Assembly (NCBI RefSeq): GCF_022870885.1
Contig: NZ_CP091509.1
Location: 806,001 to 870,000 of the forward strand
Direction: 5' to 3'
Length of the DNA: 64,000 nt
Source: Neisseria dumasiana
Lineage (GTDB): Bacteria; Pseudomonadota; Gammaproteobacteria; Burkholderiales; Neisseriaceae
Shown here: one piece after another, positions 14,080 to 60,985 of the stretch
Numbering within the stretch: the first letter of the stretch is position 1
Layout: every line of letters begins with the position of its first letter
The notes under the pieces: generated by a model
Database searches by the model: none
What the model saw: the letters and a program-made list of their open reading frames with translations, nothing else
What the model was told of the DNA's origin: nothing
Position numbers and translations under genes: made by a program

Positions 14080-17000
14080 ATGTCTAATCAGATCGTTGTT
14101 TCTGTGGGCAGGTTGGTTGGCGGACGCTTTGTGGATGCGGAAGGTGTTGTGCAATACAACGCGCACAGAGGGTCGGGTAAGCCTTTGTATATTCGGGCAG
14201 AAGCGCATGCCGTTTATCGGTTGGCAGATGAAGATACCGGCTTGGTGCCTGAAAATATCGAATTGGTGCAGGTGGGTAATCATTTGCATATCCGCGCGAA
14301 AGATTCTGCAGCAGCACAGCCGGATATTGTGATTGAAGACTACTATGTATATGCCAAACCTGAGAACGGCAGCCGGGTGTTTGCTTTCGATGCAAAGGGC
14401 AATGCGCATTATTATGAAGTAGAAGTGCCCGAAACGGCTTTGTTGGCGCAAGAAGTTACGGTTGGCCGTTCGTCGTCGGGCGGGGTAAACAAATTGGCGG
14501 TTGCTTTGGGCGGTTTGGCCGGAGCGGGTTTGATTGGTGCGTTGGCGGGAGGTGGCGGAGGCGGCAAGTCTTCGAATGAAGCTGCCGCACCTTCTGCGCC
14601 TGCTAAGGTTAACCGTAAAGAAGAAGCACCGCTTGGCAAGATGCCGTCTGAAGAGAAAAACAGTGGCGGGGCACAACTGTTTATCGCCACAAACGATGCG
14701 GAACCGACCGTTGTCGATGTGGCGCCGCCTGCAGATAAACAGGAGGAAAACAAAGAGATAGAGCAAGCAAGGCCGTCTGAAAAGGTGGCGCAGGCCGATA
14801 CGGTAGAAGTTTCGGAAGTAGCGGCGGAAGTAGCTCCTGCCGAAGATGCGCCTTCGGTTGCAGATCAAGAGAAAACCAAAGAGGTAGAGCAGGACAAGCC
14901 GTCTGAAAAGGTGGCGCAGGCCGATACGGTAGAAGTTTCGGAAGAGGCGGCGGAAGTGGCTCCTACTGAAGATGCGCCTTCGGTTATAGATCAAAACACA
15001 GCCGAAAATCAGGAACCGGAAAAAACTGCCGAGGTTGAAAATGCGGCGGTTGTGAAGCCTGTTGATCAGGCCGAGCCTACATCGCCGGATTCATTGGAAA
15101 AAGTAGGCAATAACGACAGCGAAGTAATGGAAGTGCGCTTCGGTAAAGACGGGCATTTCTATATTTACCAGCATGAAAAGTACGGCCGTTATATCGATGC
15201 GGCAGAGTTCGGTACCGATGCAACCGGTAAAACCGACAGCTTGGCTGCGATTAATAATGCGCTCGCAGCCGCCCATCAAGAAAAAGTAGCCGTGCGCTTG
15301 AGCGGCAAACTGTATATTTCCGACCAAATTGTTTTTAATAAGGCAAATTCGGGTGTTACCGGTATTTTTGGCGACGGCATGGGCAAAACCGTTGTGTCTT
15401 TCGATAAAGCGCAAAAAGGGGTGTTCAATCCGAACAGCAACGAAGACGATGTGCGCGATTTTGCCGGTATTTTGGTGGACGGGCAAAGCAATAAAACCAT
15501 TGCCGATTTGTCGGTGAAATACACCCACCCTGATTTTTACCGCAAAGGCCAAAGCTATTTCGGCAAGGTAAACGGTATTTTGGTTAACGATGCCGATAAC
15601 ACGCTGATCAGCAAAGTAGAAGTATCCGGCGCAAACCGTGCGGGCGTGTTTTTCACATCAACGCAGGCTTTGCAGAAAGACCCCGAAAGTGCGAAAGGCA
15701 GAACCTATAAAGCCAGATTGATTTGGAAAGAAGTAGACGAACACTACGACAATCTGCCTTTAGGCGAAAACAACCGCATTGTCGACAGTTATCTGCATCA
15801 CAACCGTGTAGCCGGCGCCTTGGTTGCGTATCAAAAAGATTTTGTGGCCAGCGGCAACAAACTGGCGTGGAACGGACACGAAGCCGACGGCGGCACGGGT
15901 TACGGTATTGCAAGCATGGCCGGCAGTTACAACTACGGCATTACATATACGAACAACACGACAGACCACAACTACCGCAAAGGTTTGGATGTTCATGACG
16001 GCGACGACGTTGTAATTGCAAACAACACCTTAATCGGCGACAGGCTGTATGGTATTTCGGTTTATAACCGCCAATTTACAATGGATACCGTAAAGATTGC
16101 CGATAACACCATTATTCAAGATCCTACATTCCGTTTGGCGGTAAGCGACAATCCTCGATACACTTATCACGGCTATTCCGGCATCCAAGTGCAGACCAAT
16201 ACGCAGTTTAAAGATTTAAACAGCAGTGCTACGGGTAAATTTGAAATTCACGGTAATACCATCAAAAATTTGGAAATGTATAAAAATGCCCAGCATACTT
16301 ACGGTATCGAATTCCGCAATCACGAACAGAAGATGCACTATCAATTGGATATCAGCAATAACGTGATTCAAGGCGAATCGACCAAATACATGATTGCCGT
16401 AATCAACAATACCCGCGACCGTGTAACGGGCGATAAAGGTTCGGGTGCGGGCGACATCAATATCACAGGCAATAAAATGAGCATCGGCGTGATCCCGTCG
16501 GGAACCGTGCCCGTGTTTATCAACGAAGAAAGCAATAACGGTAAGCTGCGCGGAAAAGTAACCTTCGAAGGTAATGATTTGACCATACGCAAGCAGTCCG
16601 ACGGCAGCATCGAAGGCATTCAGATGATAGGCAATGCCCAAAGCTATCATGTGAACAACAACAACTTTGAAATTCACGGCAACATGAACAAGCCTTTGAT
16701 CAGCGTGTTAGGACGTGCAGGCAGCGAAACGCCGGATTTGCATGCTTACGGCAACGATATTACCACCGACCTCAAAGGCCAACTTTACCGCAGCTGGATC
16801 GAGCGCAGCAAAGTTGATGTGTTTGCCGATGACAATACCCACAATAATAAAGCGCTGGCTAAAATAGAGCATATTACTGCGCCGGCAGCTGGGGCTGTTC
16901 ATGATGATGGCAATACGGCCAATCTATGGGACATCGGCACGGACAGCATTTCGGGAATTCCCGTTGACCGCCAAACAAGCTCTGCACAATCGGAGCGTTC

Positions 17001-17232
17001 CGAATCGGTGGTGCTGAAAACGGGAGAGCAAAACGAGATATTCTTGGCCGAACCGCAGGATACAGCCAAGTTGGATAACCTGCTTGCTGTAACCGAATTG
17101 AATCTTTCCGGTTTGTTGGGAAGAGAGAATACGACGGCATTTGCCGAAAATGTGATCGTGCCGGAATATAGCGTGCTCAATGTTCAGGCAGGGCAATGGC
17201 AGGATGAATCGGCAGCGGCCTACGTTGTTTAA
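14080..17232 (+). CDS. Large surface/secreted protein: BapA-like prefix, acidic repeats, right-handed beta-helix
   Basis: 1050 residues without a Sec signal peptide. Residues 1-110 (MSNQIVVSVGRLVGG onward) resemble the prefix domain of BapA-type, type I-secreted adhesins. A hydrophobic Ala/Gly stretch ending in GGGGGGKSS follows near residue 150. Residues ~190-340 are acidic and include two copies of a 42-residue unit. From ~350 a pectate-lyase/epimerase-like right-handed beta-helix begins (YGRYIDAAEFGTDATGKTDS), with repeated NN-T rungs to about 900. An ACGGAG ribosome site precedes the ATG after a very AT-rich leader. No type I secretion genes lie in the window. A polysaccharide-acting enzyme or an adhesin are both possible. 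Confidence 0.6.
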   Translation: MSNQIVVSVGRLVGGRFVDAEGVVQYNAHRGSGKPLYIRAEAHAVYRLADEDTGLVPENIELVQVGNHLHIRAKDSAAAQPDIVIEDYYVYAKPENGSRVFAFDAKGNAHYYEVEVPETALLAQEVTVGRSSSGGVNKLAVALGGLAGAGLIGALAGGGGGGKSSNEAAAPSAPAKVNRKEEAPLGKMPSEEKNSGGAQLFIATNDAEPTVVDVAPPADKQEENKEIEQARPSEKVAQADTVEVSEVAAEVAPAEDAPSVADQEKTKEVEQDKPSEKVAQADTVEVSEEAAEVAPTEDAPSVIDQNTAENQEPEKTAEVENAAVVKPVDQAEPTSPDSLEKVGNNDSEVMEVRFGKDGHFYIYQHEKYGRYIDAAEFGTDATGKTDSLAAINNALAAAHQEKVAVRLSGKLYISDQIVFNKANSGVTGIFGDGMGKTVVSFDKAQKGVFNPNSNEDDVRDFAGILVDGQSNKTIADLSVKYTHPDFYRKGQSYFGKVNGILVNDADNTLISKVEVSGANRAGVFFTSTQALQKDPESAKGRTYKARLIWKEVDEHYDNLPLGENNRIVDSYLHHNRVAGALVAYQKDFVASGNKLAWNGHEADGGTGYGIASMAGSYNYGITYTNNTTDHNYRKGLDVHDGDDVVIANNTLIGDRLYGISVYNRQFTMDTVKIADNTIIQDPTFRLAVSDNPRYTYHGYSGIQVQTNTQFKDLNSSATGKFEIHGNTIKNLEMYKNAQHTYGIEFRNHEQKMHYQLDISNNVIQGESTKYMIAVINNTRDRVTGDKGSGAGDINITGNKMSIGVIPSGTVPVFINEESNNGKLRGKVTFEGNDLTIRKQSDGSIEGIQMIGNAQSYHVNNNNFEIHGNMNKPLISVLGRAGSETPDLHAYGNDITTDLKGQLYRSWIERSKVDVFADDNTHNNKALAKIEHITAPAAGAVHDDGNTANLWDIGTDSISGIPVDRQTSSAQSERSESVVLKTGEQNEIFLAEPQDTAKLDNLLAVTELNLSGLLGRENTTAFAENVIVPEYSVLNVQAGQWQDESAAAYVV
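14752..15003 (+). repeat. Tandem 126-bp coding repeat containing DUS
   Basis: Two adjacent copies of a 126-base (42-codon) unit at 14752-14877 and 14878-15003, each encoding PSEKVAQADTVEVSE and an acidic tail. Each copy contains an in-frame uptake core GCCGTCTGAA read as PSE. Such a repeat can expand or contract without shifting frame. Confidence 0.85.
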
Positions 17233-23138: not shown

Positions 23139-26100
23139 ATGAATTATCCCATCCCCGCCCCCGCCCAAAAATCCCGCTGGCTCGGCCTTTCGCGCGGCAG
23201 CCTGCCTTTGATGCTTACCGAATGCCTGCCTGAACAACCTGTAAAAATCATTCTCACGCAAGACGTGGAGCAGGCTTTGCGGCTGCAAACCGCGTGGCAG
23301 TTTTTCCGCCCGCAGGATAAGGCGGTGTTTCTGCCCGATTGGGAAACGCTGCCCTACGAACGTTTTTCGCCGCATCAGGATTTGGTTTCGGAGCGGCTTT
23401 CTGCCTTGTGGCAGCTGAAAAACGGGCAGGCCGACGTGTTGGTGGTGCCGGTGGCCACCGCCATGCAGAAGCTCGCACCGGTGTCGTTTCTGCTCGGGCG
23501 CACGTTTTGGCTGAAAACGGGTCAAACGCTCGATATCGACGCGTTGCGCGAAAACTTGGTGGAAGCCGGTTACAGCCATGTTTCCAACGTGATTGCCGCC
23601 GGCGAATTTGCCGTGCGCGGCGGTATTTTGGATATTTTTCCGATGGGCGCGGAGTTGCCCTACCGCCTCGATATGTTCGGCGATGAAATCGACAGCATCA
23701 AAACTTTCGACCCCGACACCCAGCGCACGCTTGCTCCGGTAAGCGAAATCCGCCTGCTGCCCGCGCACGAGTTCCCGACCGACGACGACGCGCAAAAAAT
23801 CTTCCGCAGCCGTTTCCGCGAAGAAATCGAGGGCGACTACAACGCCGCCACCGTGTACAAAGCCGTGAGCAACGGCCATTTCGGTGCGGGCGTGGAATAT
23901 TATCTGCCGCTGTTTTTTGAAAACGAATGCGCCACATTGTTCGACTATATCGGCGAAGAAGCCGTTGTCGTGTGCCTCGGCGACGTGCACGCCGAAGCTG
24001 CGCGCTTTTGGGCGGACGTGAAAACCCGTTATGCGATGGCGCAGGGCGATGATACCTACCCGCCTTTGCATCCACAGCATTTGTATCTCAGCGAAGACCA
24101 GTTTGCAGGCCGTCTGAAACCTTATCCGCAAATCCTGCCCGACTTTCACGGCAAGCAGCACCAATTGCCCGATGTGGCCGTGAACCGCCAATCCGAAACC
24201 CCGCTCGCCGCCCTGCACGGTTTTCAGACGGCCTTTGAGGGCAGGATTCTGTTGTGTGCCGAAAGCGCAGGCCGCCGCGAAACCATGCTCGGCTTTTTTG
24301 CCCAGCATGGTCTGAAACCGAAAAGCGTGGACGGCTGGCAGGCGTTTTTAAACAGCGATGCGCCGCTGTGCATTGCCGTCACGCAGTTGGCGTACGGGTT
24401 TCAGCTGCCGTCTGAAAACGCGGGCGGTGTTTCCGAATCGGCCGAACCCGTAGGTCGGATTCTTGAATCCGACAAAACACAATCAGCGCAAATGTCGGAT
24501 ACAAGTATCCGACCTACGGCAGCCCATCTTTCAGACGGCCTTTCAGGTAGCCTGTCTGAAAATGTTGGTCAGACACACGAACCGGACGAAGTAGGTCGGA
24601 TTCTCGAATCCGACAAAACACAATCGGCACAAATGTCGCGGCCTACAACCGGCCTTGCCGTTATCACCGAATCCGACCTCTACCAATATGTCGCCCGCAG
24701 CCGCACCGCACGCCGCAAGAAACACGTCCAAGTTTCAGACGGCCTTTTGCGCGATTTGGCCGAAATCAACATCGGCGACCCCGTGGTACACGAAGAGCAC
24801 GGCATCGGCCGCTATATGGGCTTGGTCAGCATGGATTTGGGTGAAGGCAGCACCGAAATGATGCTGCTCGAATACGCCAACGAAGCCCAGCTTTATGTGC
24901 CCGTGTCGCAGCTGCACCTGATCAGCCGCTATTCCGGCCATGCCTATGAAAACGTGCAACTGCACCGCTTGGGCACCGCCGCGTGGAGCAAAGCCAAACG
25001 CAAAGCCGCCGAAAAAGCGCGCGATACCGCCGCCGAACTGCTCAATCTCTACGCCCAACGCGCCGCACAAGAAGGCTTTAAATTCCAGTTTAACGAATTG
25101 GACTACCAAGCCTTTTCAGACGGCTTCGGCTACGAAGAAACCGAAGACCAAGCCGCCGCCATCGCCGCCGTGCTCCAAGACCTCACCCAAGGCAAGCCGA
25201 TGGACAGGCTCGTTTGCGGCGATGTCGGCTTCGGCAAAACCGAAGTCGCCCTGCGCGCCGCCTTCGTGGCCGTGATGGGCGGCAAACAAGTGGCCGTGCT
25301 CGCCCCCACCACGCTGTTGGTCGAACAACATGCACAAAATTTCAGTGACCGCTTCGCCGATTTTCCCGTTAAAGTCGCCCAGCTTTCCCGCTTCAACAGC
25401 AGCAAAGAAACCAAAGCCACGCTCGCCGGCATGGCCGACGGCACGGTCGATATCGTTATCGGCACGCACAAACTCGTGCAAGACGACATCCAATTCAAAA
25501 ACTTGGGTTTGGTGATTATCGACGAAGAACACCGCTTCGGCGTGCGCCAAAAAGAGCAACTCAAACGCCTGCGCGCCAACGTCGATATCCTCACCCTCAC
25601 CGCCACCCCCATTCCGCGCACCCTCAGCATGGCGCTCGAAGGCTTGCGCGATTTCTCGCTCATCACCACCGCGCCCAGCCGCCGTTTGGCCGTTAAAACC
25701 TTCGTCAAACCCTTCAGCGAAGCCAGCGTGCGCGAAGCCGTGCTGCGCGAACTCAAACGCGGCGGGCAAGTATTCTTTTTACACAACGAAGTCGAAACCA
25801 TCGAAAACATGCGCGAACGCCTGCAAGAGTTGCTGCCCGAAGCCCGCATCGGCGTTGCCCACGGCCAATTGCGCGAACGCGAACTCGAACAAGTGATGCG
25901 CGACTTCCTGCAACAGCGGTTCAACCTGCTGCTGTGTTCCACCATCATCGAAACCGGCATCGACATCCCCAACGCCAACACCATCATTATCAACCGCGCC
26001 GACAAATTCGGCCTTGCCCAACTGCACCAACTGCGCGGGCGTGTCGGGCGCAGCCACCACCAAGCCTACGCCTACCTGCTCACGCCCGAATACATCACCA

Positions 26101-49989: not shown

Positions 49990-50121
49990 TTTGCTATTGA
50001 GCTTGGATAAAGATATAAACAGTAATCTAGAAATATAGCTGATAAATTTAAAAAATGCCTGCATGTTTTATGCTTGTGCTTGTTGAGAGTGTGCCGTTAT
50101 CTGTAAAATTTAGGTATAAAA

Positions 50122-52767
50122 TCAATCTTCGGTCAGTTCGTCTACTTTTTCTACATCGCGATATTCCAGCTCATCTATACCTTTGAAATATTGTTCGGCG
50201 CATTCGATTTTCAAACGTTCAGAGTAACGCAGTTGGTCTTTATCCACGCCCGCTTGTATACCTTTAGCTGTGCCTTTGGTTTCTGCAACGAAAAACGCTT
50301 GTTTCCCGGTTTCGGCCACTACCGCCCAGTCGGGATTGTAGTTGCCCAAAGGTGTGGGAATCTTGAACCATTTGGGTAGTTTGAAATAGAAAGGTATTTT
50401 TCCAAACGTATCGTCGTTGTAATTTTCACAATCACGGGCGAAATTTTTTTCAATAGCTGAATCCAGCGGGATATAGTTTTCATTAATGGTTTTCTCCGGT
50501 CTGCTTACTTTAAACGTGTAGTCGTTTTCGTAAAACTCCGTGCCGTTGGTTTCCATATCTCGCCATTTTTCCATCAGGCTTTGGCAATAGCGCTCGTCTT
50601 CGCTGATGTCGTAGCGTATGCCTTTTACCATCAGGTTTCGCAGAGCAAGGTTGATTTTGTCGGCGGCAAGGTCGATAAAACGTTGCGGATTGCCCGGTAG
50701 GTCGGGCAGGCGGTCGGATTGGACGAGGATTTCATACACGGTGCGCCGTGTCAGCCCCGTTTTTTTCTGAATGGCACCTAATACGTCGGGAACAGCCCAT
50801 TCGGCTTCCACAGTCAAGCTGCGGCTGGCGGTTTCTTCTGCCCAAACGCCGTCAGTTTGCGACTGCTTGATTCGGGCTTTGTGCATTTGTATTTTCGGTT
50901 TTTGGATTTCGGGCATATGGCGCACGGTTTCGGCGGCGGATTCAATCAGTACGGCCGTGTCGAAATCCACGCGGTAGCGCGGTTTGTGGCTGAGTTTCTG
51001 CCAAACGGCCTGAAACGCGGGGCCGAGCGTAAAATCTTTGCGGTAGTGCACGGTTTTTTTACGGGCAGCGTTTTTGATATTGTCCGATGCAAACGTGATG
51101 CCGCACTCGTCTTGGTATTCCTGTTGCAATGTGGCGGCAAAATGCTCGTAGCTTTCATTGGGAATAACCGTGAGTACGTTCACTTTTTCATCGCGCACCC
51201 GCACACCGCTTTGGTTGACTGCCAAACGCAGGCCGCGTCCGATTTCCTGCCGTTTTTTGATCGGCGAGTTGCTTTCGTTAAGCGTGCAGATTTGAAACAC
51301 GTTCGGGTTATCCCAGCCTTCTTTCAGGGCGGAATGTGAAAAGATAAAGCGCAAAGGGCTGTCGAACGAAAGCAGCGTTTCTTTGTCGCGCATAATCAGA
51401 TGGTAAGTGTCGTTGTCGGCCTGCGTTGTGCCGTTGGTGTTTTTCAGACGGCCTTGTTTGTCTTGCGAAAAATAGCCGTTGTGTACGCCTTCCGGGTTCT
51501 CTCCGCCCGAAAGTTTGGTGTAAATCTCTTCAAACCACAAAGCAAACTTGCCTGCTTCACCCGCTGCTGTGCGGTAGTTTTCCACCTTGTCGATAAAAAA
51601 CAGCGACAGCACCTTGATACCGTAGGCTTTCAGGCGTTTTTCCTTTTTCAGGTGTTCGGCAACGGTATGGTGAATCTGCATTTTCATGATATTGTCGCGC
51701 ATCGCATCACCGCTGCCGCGCTCGATTGTTCGGCCGTCTGAAAGCGCGATTTCCTGTGTTTCGCTATCCATGCCTTCAATGATAAAGCCGTGTCGGTAGG
51801 CTTCGTTGCCGCCCGATTTGTCAAACAAATCATCGCCGTTTTTCACGCTCACGGTTTTCTTTTTTGTTTGCCGCCCGTCTTCAACCAAAATATTCACTTT
51901 TGCTTTCAGACGGCCTTTGGAAGCCGATAACACTTCCAGTAGCTCCACCGGCGCGCCGTTCACATCGTTTTCTGCCTGCACCGACAACACTTCAATCTGC
52001 TTAACCAGCTTCAGGTTATAAGCCTGCACCGGATTCAGGCTGTAAATCTTGTGGCGGCTTGCTTTGTGGGTGGCCGAATAGCGCAGCGTAAACAGCGGAT
52101 TGAGCGATTCAATCGCTTTCAGACGGCCTTCCGTTTCCATATTCTGCGGTTCGTCGATAATCACAATCGGACGCGTTTGGCTGATTTGCGTAATGGGCGC
52201 ATCGCCGCTTTCGTTGACCTGATTGATCACATTCAAGTCTTTTTCAAACGACTGGATATTGATGACCAAAATTTCAATATTGTCGTTAACGGCAAAAGAG
52301 CGCAACGCCGACAAACGGCTGCTGCTGTATTCTGCATAATTCATCACGGGCTTGTCGAACAGGTCGGAAAAGTGCGTGCGCGTGCTGCGCAGGGTTTGCA
52401 ATACCCCCTCGCGGATGGCCACGCTCGGCACCACAATCACAAACTTCGTCCAGCCGTATTGTCGGTTCAACTCGAAAATCGTGCGCAGGTATACATAAGT
52501 TTTGCCCGTACCCGTTTCCATTTCCACCGAAAAATTCAAGCCGTGTTCGCCAATGTCGGTTTGGGAGAGTTCTGATTCCTGCTGGACGGTATTCAGGTTG
52601 CGGTTTATGGTCTCCCAATCCAAAGCCAATTCATTTGCCACAAAGCGGCTGGTCGCACTGCTTTGCAATTCAAAATCCTGTTTGCGGTTAGGCTCACCTT
52701 CAAACAGGCGCAAAACCGCATTGACCGCATCAAGCTGGTAATTCAGCGTTTCAAATTTCAGTTCCAT
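50122..52767 (-). CDS. res: Type III restriction endonuclease, Res subunit
   Basis: 881 residues: SF2 helicase with Walker A VEMETGTGKTYVYLRT, DEPQNM box and SATHKAS, GRGLR motif VI (KKRQEIGRGLRLAVNQ), and a C-terminal PD-(D/E)XK nuclease (NPDWAVVAETGKQAFFVAETKG). It needs Mod for site recognition; cleavage requires two inversely oriented sites. Transcribed with mod, 105 bases downstream of it. Intact here, while mod is out of frame. Confidence 0.93.
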   Translation of the reverse strand: MELKFETLNYQLDAVNAVLRLFEGEPNRKQDFELQSSATSRFVANELALDWETINRNLNTVQQESELSQTDIGEHGLNFSVEMETGTGKTYVYLRTIFELNRQYGWTKFVIVVPSVAIREGVLQTLRSTRTHFSDLFDKPVMNYAEYSSSRLSALRSFAVNDNIEILVINIQSFEKDLNVINQVNESGDAPITQISQTRPIVIIDEPQNMETEGRLKAIESLNPLFTLRYSATHKASRHKIYSLNPVQAYNLKLVKQIEVLSVQAENDVNGAPVELLEVLSASKGRLKAKVNILVEDGRQTKKKTVSVKNGDDLFDKSGGNEAYRHGFIIEGMDSETQEIALSDGRTIERGSGDAMRDNIMKMQIHHTVAEHLKKEKRLKAYGIKVLSLFFIDKVENYRTAAGEAGKFALWFEEIYTKLSGGENPEGVHNGYFSQDKQGRLKNTNGTTQADNDTYHLIMRDKETLLSFDSPLRFIFSHSALKEGWDNPNVFQICTLNESNSPIKKRQEIGRGLRLAVNQSGVRVRDEKVNVLTVIPNESYEHFAATLQQEYQDECGITFASDNIKNAARKKTVHYRKDFTLGPAFQAVWQKLSHKPRYRVDFDTAVLIESAAETVRHMPEIQKPKIQMHKARIKQSQTDGVWAEETASRSLTVEAEWAVPDVLGAIQKKTGLTRRTVYEILVQSDRLPDLPGNPQRFIDLAADKINLALRNLMVKGIRYDISEDERYCQSLMEKWRDMETNGTEFYENDYTFKVSRPEKTINENYIPLDSAIEKNFARDCENYNDDTFGKIPFYFKLPKWFKIPTPLGNYNPDWAVVAETGKQAFFVAETKGTAKGIQAGVDKDQLRYSERLKIECAEQYFKGIDELEYRDVEKVDELTED

Positions 52768-52809
52768 ATCGTTTTCTTTTCAAATCATCTGTTGCGCTGT
52801 ACGGAGCCG

Positions 52810-52876
52810 GTAGGTCGGATACTTGTATCCGACGATCTGATAGGCAGATATTGTCGGATTCGAGAATCCGACCTAC
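52810..52876 (-). repeat. GTAGGTCGGATTC palindromic repeat, copy C (between mod and res)
   Basis: 67 bases whose arms are the reverse-complement arrangement of copy A in mfd, with a different middle. Its edge supplies the TAG stop codon of mod. Confidence 0.85.
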
Positions 52877-54908
52877 ACACATTCAAAAATAATGCCCGCG
52901 TCGCGCATCTGCAAAACGGCATTACTTTTTAGCGCATCATTGCCTTCAAACAAACGGTCGAGTGCCACGACTTTGGCGGGGTTTTCGGCAATCACTGTAT
53001 CTATCAAAGCTTCGTCGGCGCGGGTAAGCAGCAGGGCGGTGCGTTTGCCCGTGTCTTCGTCTTCCGCCCAATACACGCCGTCTGATACATGTAGTGGGCA
53101 GGTGAGTTTCAAACCTAAGCGCAGCATCAGTTCGTAGGCCATATTCAGCGGTTCGGCATGTTCGGCAACAGGATCGATAAACATGGCCAGTTGCGCCTCG
53201 AGGCCGTCTGAACCTTTTTCAGACGGCCTCCACGGTTTGAAATGGCTTTCGGCCAGTTTGAATACCTTAAAACCGGTATCAATGTTTTTTTCAGGATGTT
53301 GTTCGCGGATTTGCCTGCCCGCACGGCGGATGCGTTCTTTGGCGATTTCGGCGATGGTGTCGAAACCGGCTTTGCGCGCTTCGGATTTTTCGTCGGTTTC
53401 TTCGGGAAGCTGCACGCAGATATAGCGGCGGCTGCTTCCGTCTTCGGCGTTAAGCTGCATTACGGCGTGGGCGGTGGTGCCGGAGCCGGAGAAAAAGTCA
53501 AGGATTAGGTCGTTTGAGTTGCTGACATAAGAGGCCAAGTGATGGATGAGATTGGTGGGTTTGGACTTTCCAAACACTTGGCTATTAAATAACTGCTTGA
53601 TGCTTTCACCGCCGTTTCGGGTGGGTATATCAATTATTCCTTTCAAGTTGCTTTCGGTTTCTTCAATAAATAATTTCCGATAAGCTCTTTCGCCACGCCA
53701 TACAATTCTGTTATTTTCAAACAGTTCATTAATGTAATCCTGTCCCATCCAATGGCGGCCTTCAGGCGCGGGAATAAGTTTATTACCGAAATAGCGGGGT
53801 GGGCCGCTGCCTTCGCCTGTTAAATCCACGGCATAGTAGATTTTCCAGTTGTTATCTAAATTGTTGTAGTTGCTAATCCAATTGTATTTTTTACTTTTTT
53901 CCCGCTTTCCTCGTTCCAAAATATCCTTAATTGCTTGGCTAAGCATTTGCCGAGTTTCATCTAGGCTTTTTCCTCGCAGCTTGGCATCGGCAATTAATGT
54001 GTTTAAAAAGGCACTTTCGGGACGAGTGTTTTTCCATCTTGTTAACCCGTAATTATTTTTGGCATAGCACAATATATATTCGTGCTCTATTGCGATCTGT
54101 TCGCTGTTTCGTGAAGAGTTGTGCCAAACCATTTGTCCCACAAAATTCTCTGCCCCAAACACCTCATCACACAGCAGCTTCAATTGCGCCTGTTCGTTGT
54201 CGTCAATCGAGATAAAAATCACACCGTCGTCGCGTAGCAGGGTTTTGGCCAGATGTAGGCGCGGCAGCATCATGGAGAGCCAGTTGCTGTGGTAATGGCC
54301 GCTTTCCTTGCTGTTTTTGCGCCATGCACCTTGGAATACGCCGTCGCGTTTCAGGTAGCCTTTGTCGCTTTTGTCGCCGACGCGGCGGGCGTATTCTTCG
54401 CGGGTTTCCGAAAACTTGTCTGGATAGATAAAAGAATCGCTGCCGGTGTTGTAAGGCGGGTCGATATAGATCATCTTCACGCTGCCGGCATAGGCTTTTT
54501 GCAGGATTTTCAGGGCTTCGAGGTTTTCGGCTTCGATAAATAGATTATTCGTGCCGTCGAAATCCACCGATTCGGCTTGGTAGGGAATCAGTGTGTTGGA
54601 TGTGGGCGCTTGAAGAGTGCGGTAGGCTTCGCTTTTGCCTGCCCAGTTGAGCTGGTAGCGTTCGTTGTGATGGGCGAGATTCTCTTCGCCGAGAATGAGC
54701 TTGAGTTTTTCCCAGTCGATTTGGTCTTCGCAAAAGGCTTCGGGAAAGAGAGATTTTAGTTTTAATATATTGATTTTATTGTAATTTTCATTTATAATTT
54801 GGTTGCTGGTTGCTGGTTGCTGGTTGCTGGTTGCTGGTTGCTGGTTGCTGGTTGCTGGTTGCTGGTTGCTGGTTGCTGGTTGCTGGTTGCTGGTTGCTGG
54901 TTGCCCAT
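52873..54908 (-). CDS. mod: Type III DNA methyltransferase Mod, phase-variable, OFF in this sequence
   Basis: Beta-type adenine methyltransferase: DPPYNTGSDSFIYPD (motif IV) precedes the variable recognition region, and LDFFSGSGTTAHAVMQLN (motif I, FxGxG) follows. The only ATG with a ribosome site (AAAGGATAAAAT-ATG, start 54908) opens into 14 full AACCAGC-type heptamers, then AAA TTA TAA, a stop, giving 38 residues. The methyltransferase body (from ATT ATA AAT GAA) is in another frame and open from the repeats to the TAG at 52873. It would be joined with 12 or 15 units (673 or 680 residues). The repeat encodes NQQPATS in every frame and has no stop. Confidence 0.9.
54801..54904 (-). repeat. 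Heptanucleotide tract controlling mod (14 full units plus 6 bases)
   Basis: 104 bases of GGTTGCT (plus strand), uninterrupted. On the coding strand AGCAACC follows ATGG-GCAACC. Tracts of this kind change length by slipped-strand mispairing; a 7-base unit changes the frame each time. Confidence 0.97.
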
Positions 54909-54974
54909 ATTTTATCCTTTCCCTTTGATAGCTGAAAAAAACGCATCATAACAGTTCGCTAAGCATATTATCAG

Positions 54975-55093
54975 AGGCCGTCTGAAAAAACAGCGCAAAT
55001 CAACTTATTTTTCAGGCTATGGTTGCATTAAGCCTGAGTGTGGCGGGCATATTGTTTTCTCAAGTTGATTTGCGCTGTTTTTTCAGACGGCCT
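54975..55093. mobile_element. 119-bp element with perfect 32-bp inverted ends that include DUS
   Basis: 54975-55006 (AGGCCGTCTGAAAAAACAGC onward) and 55062-55093 are exact reverse complements over 32 bases. The inside holds a second hairpin TCAGGC/GCCTGA and no gene. It lies between mod and the ABC transporter and may also act as their terminator. Confidence 0.75.
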
Positions 55094-55116
55094 TTGTCTG
55101 CTTCGACTTCATGTTT

Positions 55117-55866
55117 TTAAACCCTGAAATAAACACCTTTTTCATCACATACCCGCTCGATCGGCCACTGATAGACTTCTGCCAGCAATTCGGGCTGCAT
55201 CACTTGTTCGGGAGCTCCGGCGGCAACCACTTTGCCCTGATTCATCAATATCACATGTTGGGCGTAACGGGCGGCCAGATTTAAATCGTGCAACACCATA
55301 ACCGCGCTGAAATGTTGGCGGTTGCCGCCCAGATAGTTCATCAAGCTGTGTTGGTGGCGGATGTCGAGATGGTTGCACGGTTCGTCGAGCAGCAGTATCG
55401 GGGCGTTTTGGAGTAGGGCGCGGATGATGTTGGCGCGTTGCTGCTCGCCGCCGGAAAGGGTTTGGATGCGCTTTTCGGCGAGTTCTTGCAAATCGAAATG
55501 AGCCAGCAGGGCTTCGGCTTGTTCAGACGGCTTGGAGGCCGTCTGAAAAGGCCATGTGCTGTCGCTTCCGCGCCCGAGTTCGATGTATTCGCGTACGGTT
55601 AGCGGCATTTGGTATTGGCCGTGCTGCGCCACCCAAGCGACGCTGCCTTGTTTCAGTTGCGGTGCTACGGCCTTGCCGAACAGATTTACCGTGCCTTGCC
55701 CCGTTTGGCGGATCAGGCTTTTGAGCAGAGTCGATTTGCCTGCCCCGTTGGGGCCGATAATGGCTGTGTGGCAGCCGTGCGGCAGGTTCAATTCTTCGAT
55801 TTCCAGCAGCACCTTGGTTTTGGCTGTTACTTTCAATTGTTTGATGGTAAAAGAATAATTCGTCAT
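55117..55866 (-). CDS. ABC transporter ATPase, iron/siderophore (FecE-like) type
   Basis: 249 residues: Walker A GPNGAGKSTLLKSL, signature LSGGEQQRANIIRALL, Walker B ILLLDEPCNHLD and the H-loop VLHDLNLAARYA. The branch is that of FecE/FhuC/BtuD. A DUS inside the gene encodes FQTAS. It follows its permease by 88 bases. Confidence 0.87.
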   Translation of the reverse strand: MTNYSFTIKQLKVTAKTKVLLEIEELNLPHGCHTAIIGPNGAGKSTLLKSLIRQTGQGTVNLFGKAVAPQLKQGSVAWVAQHGQYQMPLTVREYIELGRGSDSTWPFQTASKPSEQAEALLAHFDLQELAEKRIQTLSGGEQQRANIIRALLQNAPILLLDEPCNHLDIRHQHSLMNYLGGNRQHFSAVMVLHDLNLAARYAQHVILMNQGKVVAAGAPEQVMQPELLAEVYQWPIERVCDEKGVYFRV

Positions 55867-55954
55867 ATATTTTAAGAGACCGTAAGTTTGGGCGGTGGCA
55901 AAGGCGGCGTGGAAAGCAAAGCAACGGCCGCAGCAACAGTTCGGTTGATTAACT

Positions 55955-56893
55955 TTATTTGCGTAAAGGTTTTAAAAACAGCCACATAAAGAAAGGCCCG
56001 CCGAGCAGGGCGATAACGATGCCTACCGGAACATCTACCGGATAAGTAAACCAACGTGCCGCGCTGTCGACAGCCAGCAGAAACACGGCACCGAGCCAAG
56101 CCGAAAGAACAATCAGTTTGCTGCGTCTGCCGCCTACTGCCTGAGCCACGACATTCGGCACCATCATGCCGAGAAAGCCGATGATGCCTGAAAGCGATAC
56201 GGCGGCTCCGGTAAGCAAAGCGGCACCGACCACGGTTTGTATCCGCACCGCCTGCACCGAAATCCCCATGCTGACGGCGGTATCTTCGCCAAGCATCAGA
56301 ATGTCGAGCTTTTTGCCGACGATAACCAGCAGTATCAGCCCCGCCAGCATCACGGTTGCAGCATACAACGGTGAAGTAAATCCTGCTTCGGCCAAGCTGC
56401 CCGACAGCCAGATGGTTGCGCTGCGCAAAACCATATCGTCGGATAAAAACAGAATCAGGCTCACGATGGCAGCGGAAAATGCGCTCAACACAAAGCCCAG
56501 CACGAGCAACCCCAATGTGCCGCCGCCGATGAAACGGTGAATGCCCAATATCAGCAGACAAACCGCCAAAGCTCCGGCAAAGGCCGCCAGCGGTACGCCC
56601 ACCGCTCCGATGCCGAAAGCCAGTACGATAATCACGCCCAATGCCGCTCCGCCGGAAGTGCCGATCAAGCTCGGGTCGGCCAGCGGGTTTTCAAACAGTG
56701 CCTGCAACGCTGCTCCGGCCGCCGCTAAAGCCGCGCCGACCAGTAAAGAAGTGAACACGCGCGGCAGTCGGATGGCCTGTATGGTTTCGTCCATTTGGTG
56801 CGGCGGCTGCCATTCGCCGAAGCCGACGCCGGCACAAAACCAGATGAGGGCGGCGGTAATTGTGAGGGAGAGAATAAGGGGGAAAGGTTTCAT
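55955..56893 (-). CDS. ABC transporter permease, FecCD/BtuC type
   Basis: 312 residues with ~9-10 membrane helices. IRLPRVFTSLLVGAALAAAGAALQALFENPLADPSLIGTSGGAALG and GIIGFLGMMVPNVVAQAVGG are FecCD-family motifs, usually LvGpnhR-like in the latter; here it reads MVPNVVAQAVGGRRSKL, a variation. Start at 56893; the upstream 36 codons in the open frame lack a ribosome site. No binding protein or receptor gene is adjacent. Confidence 0.85.
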   Translation of the reverse strand: MKPFPLILSLTITAALIWFCAGVGFGEWQPPHQMDETIQAIRLPRVFTSLLVGAALAAAGAALQALFENPLADPSLIGTSGGAALGVIIVLAFGIGAVGVPLAAFAGALAVCLLILGIHRFIGGGTLGLLVLGFVLSAFSAAIVSLILFLSDDMVLRSATIWLSGSLAEAGFTSPLYAATVMLAGLILLVIVGKKLDILMLGEDTAVSMGISVQAVRIQTVVGAALLTGAAVSLSGIIGFLGMMVPNVVAQAVGGRRSKLIVLSAWLGAVFLLAVDSAARWFTYPVDVPVGIVIALLGGPFFMWLFLKPLRK

Positions 56894-57678: not shown

Positions 57679-60126
57679 TTATTCCTGCGACTCGGCCAGT
57701 TTGAGTGTGTCTGGCAGCCACTCGGCTTCAAAAAGGTCGAGAATCTGCCGTGCGGTTTGGTCGGCTTCGAGCAGGTCTTGCGCTTTTTGGCGGCCTTCGA
57801 GTTGCAGGCGTTTGCTGCGCATGGCGGGGGTCTCCCAACCGGCATCGTCGCGCCACGGCTCGGTTTGCAGCTTCAGTTGCAAACCGTAGGCATCGGCAAG
57901 GGTGTTTTGGATTTTGTCGAGACGCTCTTTATTGGTAACGGCGCGGGCTTCGCCCGATAGTGACAACAGCATCAAGCCTTTTTCGGCATCGTAGCCGGTC
58001 CAGGCGGCGTGTTGGGTCAGCATTTGCGCCGCGCCGAGTTTGGCGGCAAAGCGTTTGGCGATGGCCGCCCAGTTTTCGGGGGCGAACTCGGGCAAGGGGG
58101 CGAAGCCTGCTTCGTCTTCATCGTCGGGCGGCGTTTCGTCCTGCTCCGTTTGTGCATTATCCGTTTTTTCGTGGTGTTCAGACGGCATCACCGGCATATC
58201 GTATTCGGGATAGGCGTATTCTTCGGGAAAATACGGCGGCTCGTCTGCATCGGGATAAGGCGGCGCATCGGCATATTCGGGCGGATAATCCGAGGCCGTC
58301 TGAAAAGCGGTTTCGGCGTTTTCAGACGGCATGGTTTGCGGGCTGTGCACTTCGCTTAACGGAGAGGCCGTCTGAATATTGGCCGTGCTTGCTGCCGGTG
58401 TTGCCGCTGCGTTTTGAAGGCTTTCCATGCTTTCAGACGGCATGGCGGCTCCGGGTTGGCCGGTTTGAGGCGTTTCAGGTGCGGTTGGTTCTTGTGCGGC
58501 AACTTGTTCGCCTACCGTTTCGGACGGCTTTGCTGTCGGCATTGAGGCCGTCTGAAAATGCTCTGCTGCCACGGCAGGCGTTTCCTGCATGGGATTATGC
58601 AAAGGTGCTTCTTCTGCCTGAACAGTTGTTTGCGTTTCAACTTTTTCAGACGGCCTTATGGGTTCGGAGGCCGTCTGAAAATGCTCTGCTGCCACGGCAG
58701 GCATTTCCTGCGTGTGATTGTGCAAAGGTGCTTCTTCTGCCTGAGCCGCTGTTTGCGGTTCAATTTTTTCAGACGGCCTGATCTCTTCGGAGGCCGTCTG
58801 AAAGCCGTTCTCTGCCGTTTCAGGTGTTTGCGGCGCATCTTCCCACGGCGGGGTGTCTTCTGCCTGAACAACCGCATCAGGCTTTTCAGACGGCCTCACG
58901 GTCGGTGCGGGCGGTGTTGGGGCGGCGGGCGGTGCGGTTTGTGTTTCAGGCAGAATCAGCGGCTTTTTTGCGGCAGGTTCCGCCGCTTCGGGGTTGTGCA
59001 GTTGCGTACCTTCAATCACGCCGTCGGGGTCGTGCGCTTTGGCGGCAATCGGGGCAAACGCGAGCATACGCAACAGCGTCATCACGAAACCGGCGTATTC
59101 GTCGGGCGCGAGGCTCAGGTCTTGTTTGCCGTGGATGGCGCATTGGTAGTAAAGCTGGATTTGTTCGCCGCTTAAATATTGCGATAAGCGCAGCAGCGTT
59201 TCGTGTTCGGGGTCGTCGGCAATGGCGGCGGGAACGGTTTTCGCCAAGGCCAACCGTTGTAGCAGCATGGCCAGTTCGCTCAGGGCGTTGTCGAAACCGA
59301 TGGCGCGGGCGGCCATTTCCTGTGCTTTGCGCAGCAGTTCTTCGCCGTCTTGGTTTACGATGCCTTGCAGCAGTTCGTAAAGATAGCGTTTGTCAACCGC
59401 GCCGATCATCTGGCGGACATCATGCTCGGTAACGCTGCCGGAACCCATCGCAATCGCTTGGTCGAGCAGGCTCAAGGCATCGCGCATCGAACCCATGGCA
59501 GCGCGGCCGAGCAGTTGCAGCGCGGGCGGTTCGAACGGAATCTGCTCCACCGTCAGCACATGCGCCAAGTGGTCGGCCACTTGCTGCGTGGTCATGTTGC
59601 GCAGCACGAATTGCAGGCAGCGGCTCAATACGGTGATCGGTACTTTGTGCGGGTCGGTGGTGGCGAGAATGAATTTCACATGCTCGGGCGGCTCTTCCAG
59701 CGTTTTCAGCATGGCATTGAACGCGCTTTTGGAAAGCATGTGCACTTCGTCGATGATATAGACTTTGTATTTGCCTGCGGTGGGCGCGTATTGGGCGTTT
59801 TCGAGCACTTCGCGGATGTTGTCGATGCCGGTGTTGGAAGCCGCGTCGATTTCGAGTAGGTCGACGTATCGCCCCGCGTCAATCTGCGTGCAACTTTGGC
59901 ACACGCCGCAAGGCTCGCCGTGGTTGGCGTTTTCGCAGTTGAGGCTTTTCGCCAAAATGCGGGCGATGGTGGTTTTGCCCACCCCGCGCGTGCCGGTAAG
60001 CAGATAGGCATGGTGCAGGCGGCCTTCGTCGAGCGCGTTGCGCAATGCTTTGACAACATGCTCCTGCCCGACCAAATCGGCAAAGGTTTTAGGCCGCCAC
60101 TTACGGGCGAGAACTTGATAAGCCAT
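57679..60126 (-). CDS. dnaX: DNA polymerase III subunits tau and probably gamma
   Basis: 815-residue tau. Clamp-loader ATPase with Walker A GTRGVGKTTIARILAKSLNC, zinc-binding cysteines CENANHGEPCGVCQSC, Walker B YIIDEVHMLS and sensor LATTDPHK. Domains I-III end near residue 370; a long Ala/Pro/Glu-rich region follows, then the polymerase-binding domain. At codons 386-388 the sequence reads GC-A-AAA-AAG; a -1 shift would end at TGA after five more residues (58948-58946), giving a gamma-like product of ~393 residues. Eleven DUS cores lie in the linker. Confidence 0.94.
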   Translation of the reverse strand: MAYQVLARKWRPKTFADLVGQEHVVKALRNALDEGRLHHAYLLTGTRGVGKTTIARILAKSLNCENANHGEPCGVCQSCTQIDAGRYVDLLEIDAASNTGIDNIREVLENAQYAPTAGKYKVYIIDEVHMLSKSAFNAMLKTLEEPPEHVKFILATTDPHKVPITVLSRCLQFVLRNMTTQQVADHLAHVLTVEQIPFEPPALQLLGRAAMGSMRDALSLLDQAIAMGSGSVTEHDVRQMIGAVDKRYLYELLQGIVNQDGEELLRKAQEMAARAIGFDNALSELAMLLQRLALAKTVPAAIADDPEHETLLRLSQYLSGEQIQLYYQCAIHGKQDLSLAPDEYAGFVMTLLRMLAFAPIAAKAHDPDGVIEGTQLHNPEAAEPAAKKPLILPETQTAPPAAPTPPAPTVRPSEKPDAVVQAEDTPPWEDAPQTPETAENGFQTASEEIRPSEKIEPQTAAQAEEAPLHNHTQEMPAVAAEHFQTASEPIRPSEKVETQTTVQAEEAPLHNPMQETPAVAAEHFQTASMPTAKPSETVGEQVAAQEPTAPETPQTGQPGAAMPSESMESLQNAAATPAASTANIQTASPLSEVHSPQTMPSENAETAFQTASDYPPEYADAPPYPDADEPPYFPEEYAYPEYDMPVMPSEHHEKTDNAQTEQDETPPDDEDEAGFAPLPEFAPENWAAIAKRFAAKLGAAQMLTQHAAWTGYDAEKGLMLLSLSGEARAVTNKERLDKIQNTLADAYGLQLKLQTEPWRDDAGWETPAMRSKRLQLEGRQKAQDLLEADQTARQILDLFEAEWLPDTLKLAESQE
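58550..58918 (-). repeat. In-frame 123-bp repeats with DUS in the dnaX linker
   Basis: Three units spaced by exactly 123 bases (landmarks at 58550, 58673, 58796) encode PSEK...EEAPLHN..EMPAVAAEHFQTAS; the third is diverged. Each has DUS in both orientations, read as (R/M)PSE and FQTA. The linker length can change in frame. Confidence 0.85.
58963..58969 (-). promoter_or_regulatory. Candidate programmed -1 frameshift site in dnaX
   Basis: A AAA AAG in the zero frame, the same heptamer as E. coli dnaX. No clear upstream Shine-Dalgarno-like stimulator or downstream hairpin is visible, so efficiency is unknown. Confidence 0.5.
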
Positions 60127-60286: not shown

Positions 60287-60985
60287 TTAATAATTTTTTT
60301 TTTTTAATAATTTTTTGATTTTATATGCATTCCGTATACAAAGTATTGTATGCATAAATAAGTTTGATGCTAATAAGAAGAAACCAAGAGAAACTAGGTG
60401 TAAAAGTACTGCTTTAAAACCAGAAATGTTATTGAAATTAAATATAATTGCTACAGCATAAATAGAAAAAATAACAAGTAATATACAAAAAAATATAAAC
60501 CAGAGATAAGCAGTCCATTTAAATTTAAATATTATTTGATTTTCTTTTAATTCTAATTTTAGATATTCGCTTGCGCCTTTGATTTGTTTGAAAGAAAATT
60601 GAGACAATTTCCTATGAAAAATATCATATATTTTTTCTCTTTCTGTATCGTTTGCGCTTAAACCTGTTAGTTTTTTAAAAAATAGCTTATTTAGTTCATT
60701 TTTCAAGAAATTTTTATTATTTTCATCAATATAATCATTTTTAAGTAAGTTTTTTATAAATTCCTCGTGTCTATTTCTAATTTTATTAAAAATAGGCATA
60801 ATATATTTATAATTTAAAAATATCAAAATTATAATGAATACTATTGTACTTATTATATCGGCTGAATTGCATGTTGTGTTTGCTTTACTTACACTTTCAC
60901 TTACACTTTCACTTGTACAATTCCTTATTTGATTAATAAAATTTGTAATAAAATCGTTTATTTCTTTTAATGAAGATAAATTCAT
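60287..60985 (-). CDS. Low-GC membrane protein of unknown function
   Basis: 232 residues, not recognised. Membrane segments near residues 45-62, 155-185 and 190-215; a cytosolic helical middle (~70-140); lysine-rich C-terminus (KIKKLLKKKNY). Residues 24-35 come from an ACTTACACTTTC 12-base repeat. AGAGGAATTAAATT precedes the ATG. The gene and its flanks are far lower in GC than dnaX and mltB, indicating transfer. The 60127-60286 gap is AT-rich and holds the dnaX promoter region. Confidence 0.6.
   Translation of the reverse strand: MNLSSLKEINDFITNFINQIRNCTSESVSESVSKANTTCNSADIISTIVFIIILIFLNYKYIMPIFNKIRNRHEEFIKNLLKNDYIDENNKNFLKNELNKLFFKKLTGLSANDTEREKIYDIFHRKLSQFSFKQIKGASEYLKLELKENQIIFKFKWTAYLWFIFFCILLVIFSIYAVAIIFNFNNISGFKAVLLHLVSLGFFLLASNLFMHTILCIRNAYKIKKLLKKKNY

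Follow-up and report, generated by a model that had tools for sequence, protein, structure and literature searches.

The closest described systems are the Type III mod genes of Neisseria. In the accessible text of the sources, the units of modA are AGCC and AGTC, those of modB are CCCAA, GCCAA and TCCAA (PMC4751487), and that of modD is ACCGA (PMC7371114, PMC13248682). The ModD1 methylation site is given there as CCAGC (PMC13248682), Tan et al. describe the modA AGCC tract as itself a ModD target (PMC4751487), and meningococcal mod genes are stated to be OFF in most carriage isolates (PMC7157529). The mechanism is already established for other mod genes; in Streptococcus suis ModS, for example, tract length sets Mod expression and m6A (available text of PMC8125046). 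A review of Type III systems, as far as its accessible part goes, states that Mod recognises DNA and that Mod expression increases the amount of Res (PMC3874151). Heptamer repeats are described for other loci, namely a 7-bp CAAACAC repeat that gives phase variation of neisserial pglE (accessible text of PMC5953494 and PMC7157529) and the hmw promoters (that of PMC4525171).

The window (the whole 64,000-nucleotide stretch of Neisseria dumasiana DNA analysed here) contains a mod gene with a tract of a 7-bp unit, AACCAGC. A sequence-only reading of this stretch had called such a unit uncommon, which agrees with the 4- or 5-bp units published for neisserial modA, modB and modD. We consider it very likely that this is a phase-variable Type III mod/res locus switched by slippage of the heptamer, and that the window holds it in the OFF register.

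The mod/res locus and its repeat tract

The features of the locus are as follows.

50122..52767, minus strand: res, Type III restriction subunit, 881 aa, intact (ORF, Pfam, PADLOC, motifs)
52814..52872, minus strand: two short hairpins between mod and res, repeat form GTCGGATWCNNGWATCCGAC
52873..54798, minus strand: mod body of 641 residues, not in the frame of the near ATG (frames, Pfam, PADLOC, PDB match)
53479..53493, minus strand: AdoMet-binding motif FSGSG, residues 436-440 (motif search)
53614..54063, minus strand: variable target recognition domain, approximate, residues 246-395 (20-31% identity to other cluster members)
54451..54462, minus strand: catalytic motif DPPY, body residues 113-116 (motif search)
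54792..54908, minus strand: near-ATG reading frame, 38 codons, ending in TAA in the present register (frame analysis)
54800..54904, minus strand: heptanucleotide tract (GCAACCA)x15, predicted phase switch (TRF and script)
54906..54908, minus strand: near start codon ATG (sequence and frame analysis)
54916..54924, minus strand: Shine-Dalgarno-like AGGGAAAGG before the near ATG (sequence; inferred from position)
54945..54953, minus strand: extended -10 element TGTTATGAT, probable mod promoter (kept in 6/6 cluster loci)

The mod gene sits between res and an ABC-transporter ATPase gene (55866..55117, named by reading of its translation). Its body has no internal stop, is of the N6/N4 methyltransferase type (PADLOC MTase_III, E 2.5e-182; Pfam N6_N4_Mtase, E 3.1e-36) and carries DPPY together with an FxGxG motif. 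The best named match, N. dumasiana protein P0001, is 100% identical across the 641 residues. The adjoining Res has helicase and PD-ExK endonuclease domains (PADLOC REase_III, E 0; Pfam ResIII and RE_endonuc) with GTGKT, DEPQ and PD-x-ExK motifs. It too lacks internal stops and is 96% identical over its full length to its best match, N. dumasiana P0121, so the earlier description of res as intact stands. No NCBIfam model scored above its cut-off for Mod or Res, and Rfam gave no match at gathering score in 50000..56000. The nearest genome compared, G001, has 21% of sampled 31-letter words in common with the window.

The near ATG is followed by one base and then by the perfect 105-bp tract. TRF reports it as TGGTTGC x15.0 with 100% matches, and our own script agrees (105 bp, perfect period 7), with 14 complete AACCAGC words inside. 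No other perfect tract in the 64-kb window has a period of 2-12 together with a length of 24 bp or more and 2.5 or more units. The 3' end of AGGGAAAGG is 7 bases ahead of the near ATG. From this ATG the frame passes through the tract into AAA TTA TAA and ends after 38 codons, the TAA being 5 nt past the tract end. The open stretch of the Mod frame runs from 54945 to 52876, and all three frames across the tract are open because all encode the same heptapeptide. No ATG, GTG or TTG occurs in the Mod frame within or upstream of the tract; the first in-frame start is a GTG at 54567. Since the near ATG is not in register with the Mod body, mod is predicted to be OFF in the window at 15 units. The sequence-only reading had arrived at the same frames, the same stop, the same first GTG and the same OFF state. 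Its count from the A of the ATG to the last tract base needs correction from 108 to 109 bases, which does not affect the OFF conclusion.

Several other repeats are present in the window. The GTCGGATWCNNGWATCCGAC hairpin repeat has 5 matches against none expected, 2 of them between mod and res and 3 at 24454..24614. The mod-res hairpins are kept in loci L019, L020 and L021, kept with changes in L049 and altered in L048. At 54970-55095, between mod and the next gene, lies a long inverted repeat with GGCCGTCTGAA-type cores in both arms, which we take to be uptake-sequence cores. It is probably a terminator; stem-loop scoring gave only short plus-strand stem-loops there. Two 123-bp repeats, 90% alike and with GCCGTCTGAA-type cores, occupy 58544-58803 within an 815-aa minus-strand frame resembling dnaX. 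Two 126-bp tandem copies, also 90% alike, are found at 14746-14994 in a large plus-strand frame (14080..17232), and a 12-bp repeat of 2.8 copies at 60883-60914 in a small predicted membrane protein (60287..60985, minus strand).

Registers of the predicted switch and alternative starts

The unit is not a multiple of 3 and lies between a start codon and the mod body. Slipped-strand mispairing would add or remove 7-bp units, and each change would shift the frame of the start because 7 is not divisible by 3. As the sequence-only reading had calculated, one register in three links the near ATG to Mod; its product would be full-length Mod preceded at the N-terminus by repeats of NQQPATS, and that of the other two a short peptide. 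When the gene is ON, the N6-adenine type methyltransferase Mod would modify its target site and, jointly with Res, carry out restriction. OFF cells would lose both methylation and restriction, since Res is expected to depend on Mod. Res by itself would be harmless, as the earlier reading had also proposed, and OFF cells would then be without restriction too, in agreement with the accessible part of PMC3874151.

Tract length differs between close relatives. In P0001, 26 residues separate the tryptophan over the near ATG from the conserved IINENYNK. This spacing implies 11 units, whereas the window has 15 with an identical Mod body. Between the N. canis entries P0043 and P0044 the difference is 7 residues, which corresponds to 3 units. 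From these differences it follows that tract length varies between isolates of one species, in N. canis and in N. dumasiana, on few records and with the unit counts of database proteins derived from their peptides. Genome sequences gave 9.0 units in G007 (probably N. canis), 6.6 in G043 (probably N. weaveri) and 11.1 in G001. Slippage as the cause of these differences, the absence of Mod at 15 units, and the effects on methylation, restriction and any regulon are what we infer from this arrangement.

A second frame that enters the tract was overlooked in the earlier reading. It has two upstream ATGs, with their A at 54949 and 54946; in the window it reaches the tract without a stop, and in the register of P0001 a frame of this kind is joined to Mod. 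P0001 is in fact annotated from an upstream ATG in the Mod frame, with MRFFQLSKGKDKIW ahead of the repeat peptide. Were the pair a real second start, the switch would have three states (near-ATG register, upstream-ATG register and OFF, the last being that of the window). Two of three registers would then be ON, with the register of the window OFF either way. We regard this as unlikely, because the first upstream ATG (54949..54947) lies inside TGTTATGAT and the second (54946..54944) overlaps it, so that both should be upstream of the transcript start. A promoter search returned the same -10 with a poor -35. An element of the extended -10 type stands 26-37 nt before the near ATG in 6/6 cluster loci (the window, L019, L020, L021, L048 and L049). 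Overall it was found at 10/27 loci against 0.7 expected from first-order shuffles, a count in which the window and L020 have a common upstream region and are not independent, and from which L059, having no ATG, was dropped. No Shine-Dalgarno-like sequence precedes the upstream ATGs, and in G001, which has the common upstream region, the upstream frame is closed by a TGA over the near ATG. On this sequence evidence the upstream ATGs are most likely promoter and not start codons, and the start annotated for P0001 is probably a gene-calling artefact.

Short reads have difficulty with a perfect tract of 105 bp, and the recorded length could be wrong, with the sequenced cells in another register. 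Such an assembly artefact seems very unlikely. OFF is the common state, the near ATG being in the Mod frame at just 4 of the 21 loci examined (L021, L031, L054 and L058; the window is among the 21), and the switch as such is independent of the exact unit count.

We give hardly any credence to the idea that the tract switches nothing and a shorter Mod is always made from GTG 54567 or another internal start: the GTG product of 564 residues retains DPPY and FSGSG, databases hold Mod entries of 558 and 540 residues from internal starts (P0028-P0041, P0071, P0073, P0083), and other weak starts at ATT or ATA codons are conceivable, but the GTG product is without 77 body residues, most of them (residues 13-75) 98% conserved in the heptamer cluster, no Shine-Dalgarno-like sequence was seen by inspection before GTG 54567, and the short entries would be the expected choice of gene callers in OFF copies.

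Translational stop and restart at the TAAATG just after the tract was considered and rejected, as that ATG opens 9 codons in another frame before a stop and Mod is not reached. The entries with internal or unusual starts (the four listings above and P0110) are probably OFF copies as called. Databases thus appear to carry OFF mod copies as shortened or oddly started proteins, which is a warning for their use.

Recognition domains and turnover of the repeat unit

The window Mod and those of N. canis, G001 and N. weaveri are 98% identical at residues 13-75, 85-88% at 76-245, 76-78% at 396-520 and 93-94% at 521-641, but only 21-30% in the recognition domain (246-395). The yardstick for a shared gene was N- and C-terminal domains more than 90% identical and a recognition domain less than 40% identical. 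The recognition domain of the window is 91% identical to those of Eikenella corrodens P0011 and N. mucosa P0036. P0011 carries a pentamer peptide, and the tract and the recognition domain are therefore inherited separately. By these sequence comparisons, recognition domains are swapped within the cluster and between heptamer and pentamer genes.

The heptamer contains CCAGC, and the tract has 14 such sites on its coding strand, one per full AACCAGC unit, and 0 on the other. The recognition domain of L049, the pentamer gene within the cluster, is 86% identical to those of meningococcal ModD-type entries; no heptamer gene compared carries a domain of that type. A Mod reading CCAGC could come to stand behind a tract of its own targets, methylate its own switch and alter slippage or expression, a prospect to which we attach only a very slight probability. 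Self-methylation by the window Mod is not supported, since its recognition domain is just 32% identical to the meningococcal ModD-type domain, P0110 being linked to ModD1 by its repeat peptide and species.

At least three exact AACCAGC units occur in 3 of the 46 genomes of the genus, always at mod, with S17M_Sa_48 as a fourth genome (3.1 units of GCAACCA). In the order-wide sample, 3/399 genomes match three heptamer units (G001, G402 and G311). In G402 and G311 no Mod-like protein was seen in the 3.1 kb around the repeat, judged by eye from the frames through it. Among the loci compared, mod genes with this tract occur in one small Neisseria cluster and nowhere else.

Tracts near the start are present at 44 of the 75 related Mod loci in the larger tree, which excluded duplicates and loci with weak or short N-terminal matches. 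Their units are of 5 bp (28 loci), 4 bp (8), 7 bp (6) and 8 bp (1), with one poly-G. The smaller tree, with unit labels set by hand, covers 23 rows and 236 columns of the N-terminal catalytic region. In it five heptamer genes and the ACCGA-type L049 form a six-row group with support 97/97, and its wider set, with ACCGA-type, other 5-bp, 4-bp and poly-G tracts, has at least 6 unit-length changes. The heptamers were not accepted as a clade of their own, as the tree places the pentamer gene L049 among them; the AU test did not reject such a clade (p 0.245), so the change between 5 and 7 bp could have gone in either direction. The clearest case of unit replacement, as judged from alignment, is that of the N. 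weaveri-like L002 (7 bp) against L049 (5 bp). A single alignment of the two, 85% identical over 2,288 columns, extends from the upstream gene common to both, over the tract and into mod.

Other tracts among the loci compared are also unusual. The longest, in Cardiobacterium valvarum (L072), precedes a related mod and consists of 76 pentamer units (380 bp). Actinobacillus seminis (L066) has an 8-bp unit, ACAGCACA, in place of the ACAGC pentamer of its tree neighbour. Poly-G runs of 9 and 11 stand at the tract position in Neisseria weixii (L052) and in G045 (L035), respectively. L035 has no upstream start in any frame across its poly-G, and its mod homologue has an internal TGA. In Moraxella lacunata (L123), 15.6 units of AATTCGC lie about 60-70 nt before the likely start of a more distant mod homologue.

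Type III mod repeats were reportedly the subject of a large survey by Atack et al. in 2018. No description of a 7-bp unit in mod was found in the literature searched by unit sequence and by topic; that survey, or the table of repeats in PMC5953494, where N. weaveri genomes are covered, may list the unit. Within the papers searched, two things appear to be new: the 7-bp unit in a mod gene from this group, and a site at which 5-bp and 7-bp units both occur naturally. Natural 7-base and 5-base switches at one gene position, once in the same chromosomal setting, offer a ready comparison of unit length with switching rate, and a case of unit replacement with the switch kept.

Comparison with named systems

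Like EcoP15I Mod (PDB 4zcf), with which residues 7-516 align (E 1.4e-74), the window protein is a Type III Mod, but no repeat switching is described for EcoP15I in the literature compared. The pglE gene of Neisseria shares the 7-bp repeat length and is a pilin glycosylation gene, not a methyltransferase. The phase-variable Mods of Moraxella and Pasteurellaceae have a homologous body and a tract at the start, but their units (AACC, ACAGC, AGCAC) are of 4-5 bp; identities are about 42-50% over long matches and up to 63% over shorter ones. The modA and modB genes have the same architecture and the same kind of switch, with units that differ from the heptamer of the window, and loci with CCAAC/GCCAA tracts (L044, L045) fall outside the ModD-like group of the tree.

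With modD (ModD1, NEIS2364) the locus shares the pairing of a Type III mod and res, the position of the tract between the start codon and the body, a swapped central recognition domain, and an AATTATA flank immediately after the tract. In several relatives the tracts also start with ATGGCAACC. The window body is, however, 58% identical to N. meningitidis entries with an NRTEP repeat peptide. Against one of these, P0112, identity by segment is 68% (13-75), 83% (76-245), 32% (246-395), 70% (396-520) and 55% (521-641), where P0110 and P0112 are taken as modD from their repeat peptide. The accessible text of Tan et al. 2016 (PMC4751487) sets ACCGA as the modD unit and N- and C-terminal identity above 90%. 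The unit of the window is AACCAGC and the conserved domains are 68/83/70/55% identical to those of P0110/P0112; the window gene is therefore not a modD allele. The cluster also includes an ACCGA-type pentamer gene at the chromosomal place of the probable N. weaveri heptamer gene. The locus would work like modD, which is its nearest named relative among those compared.
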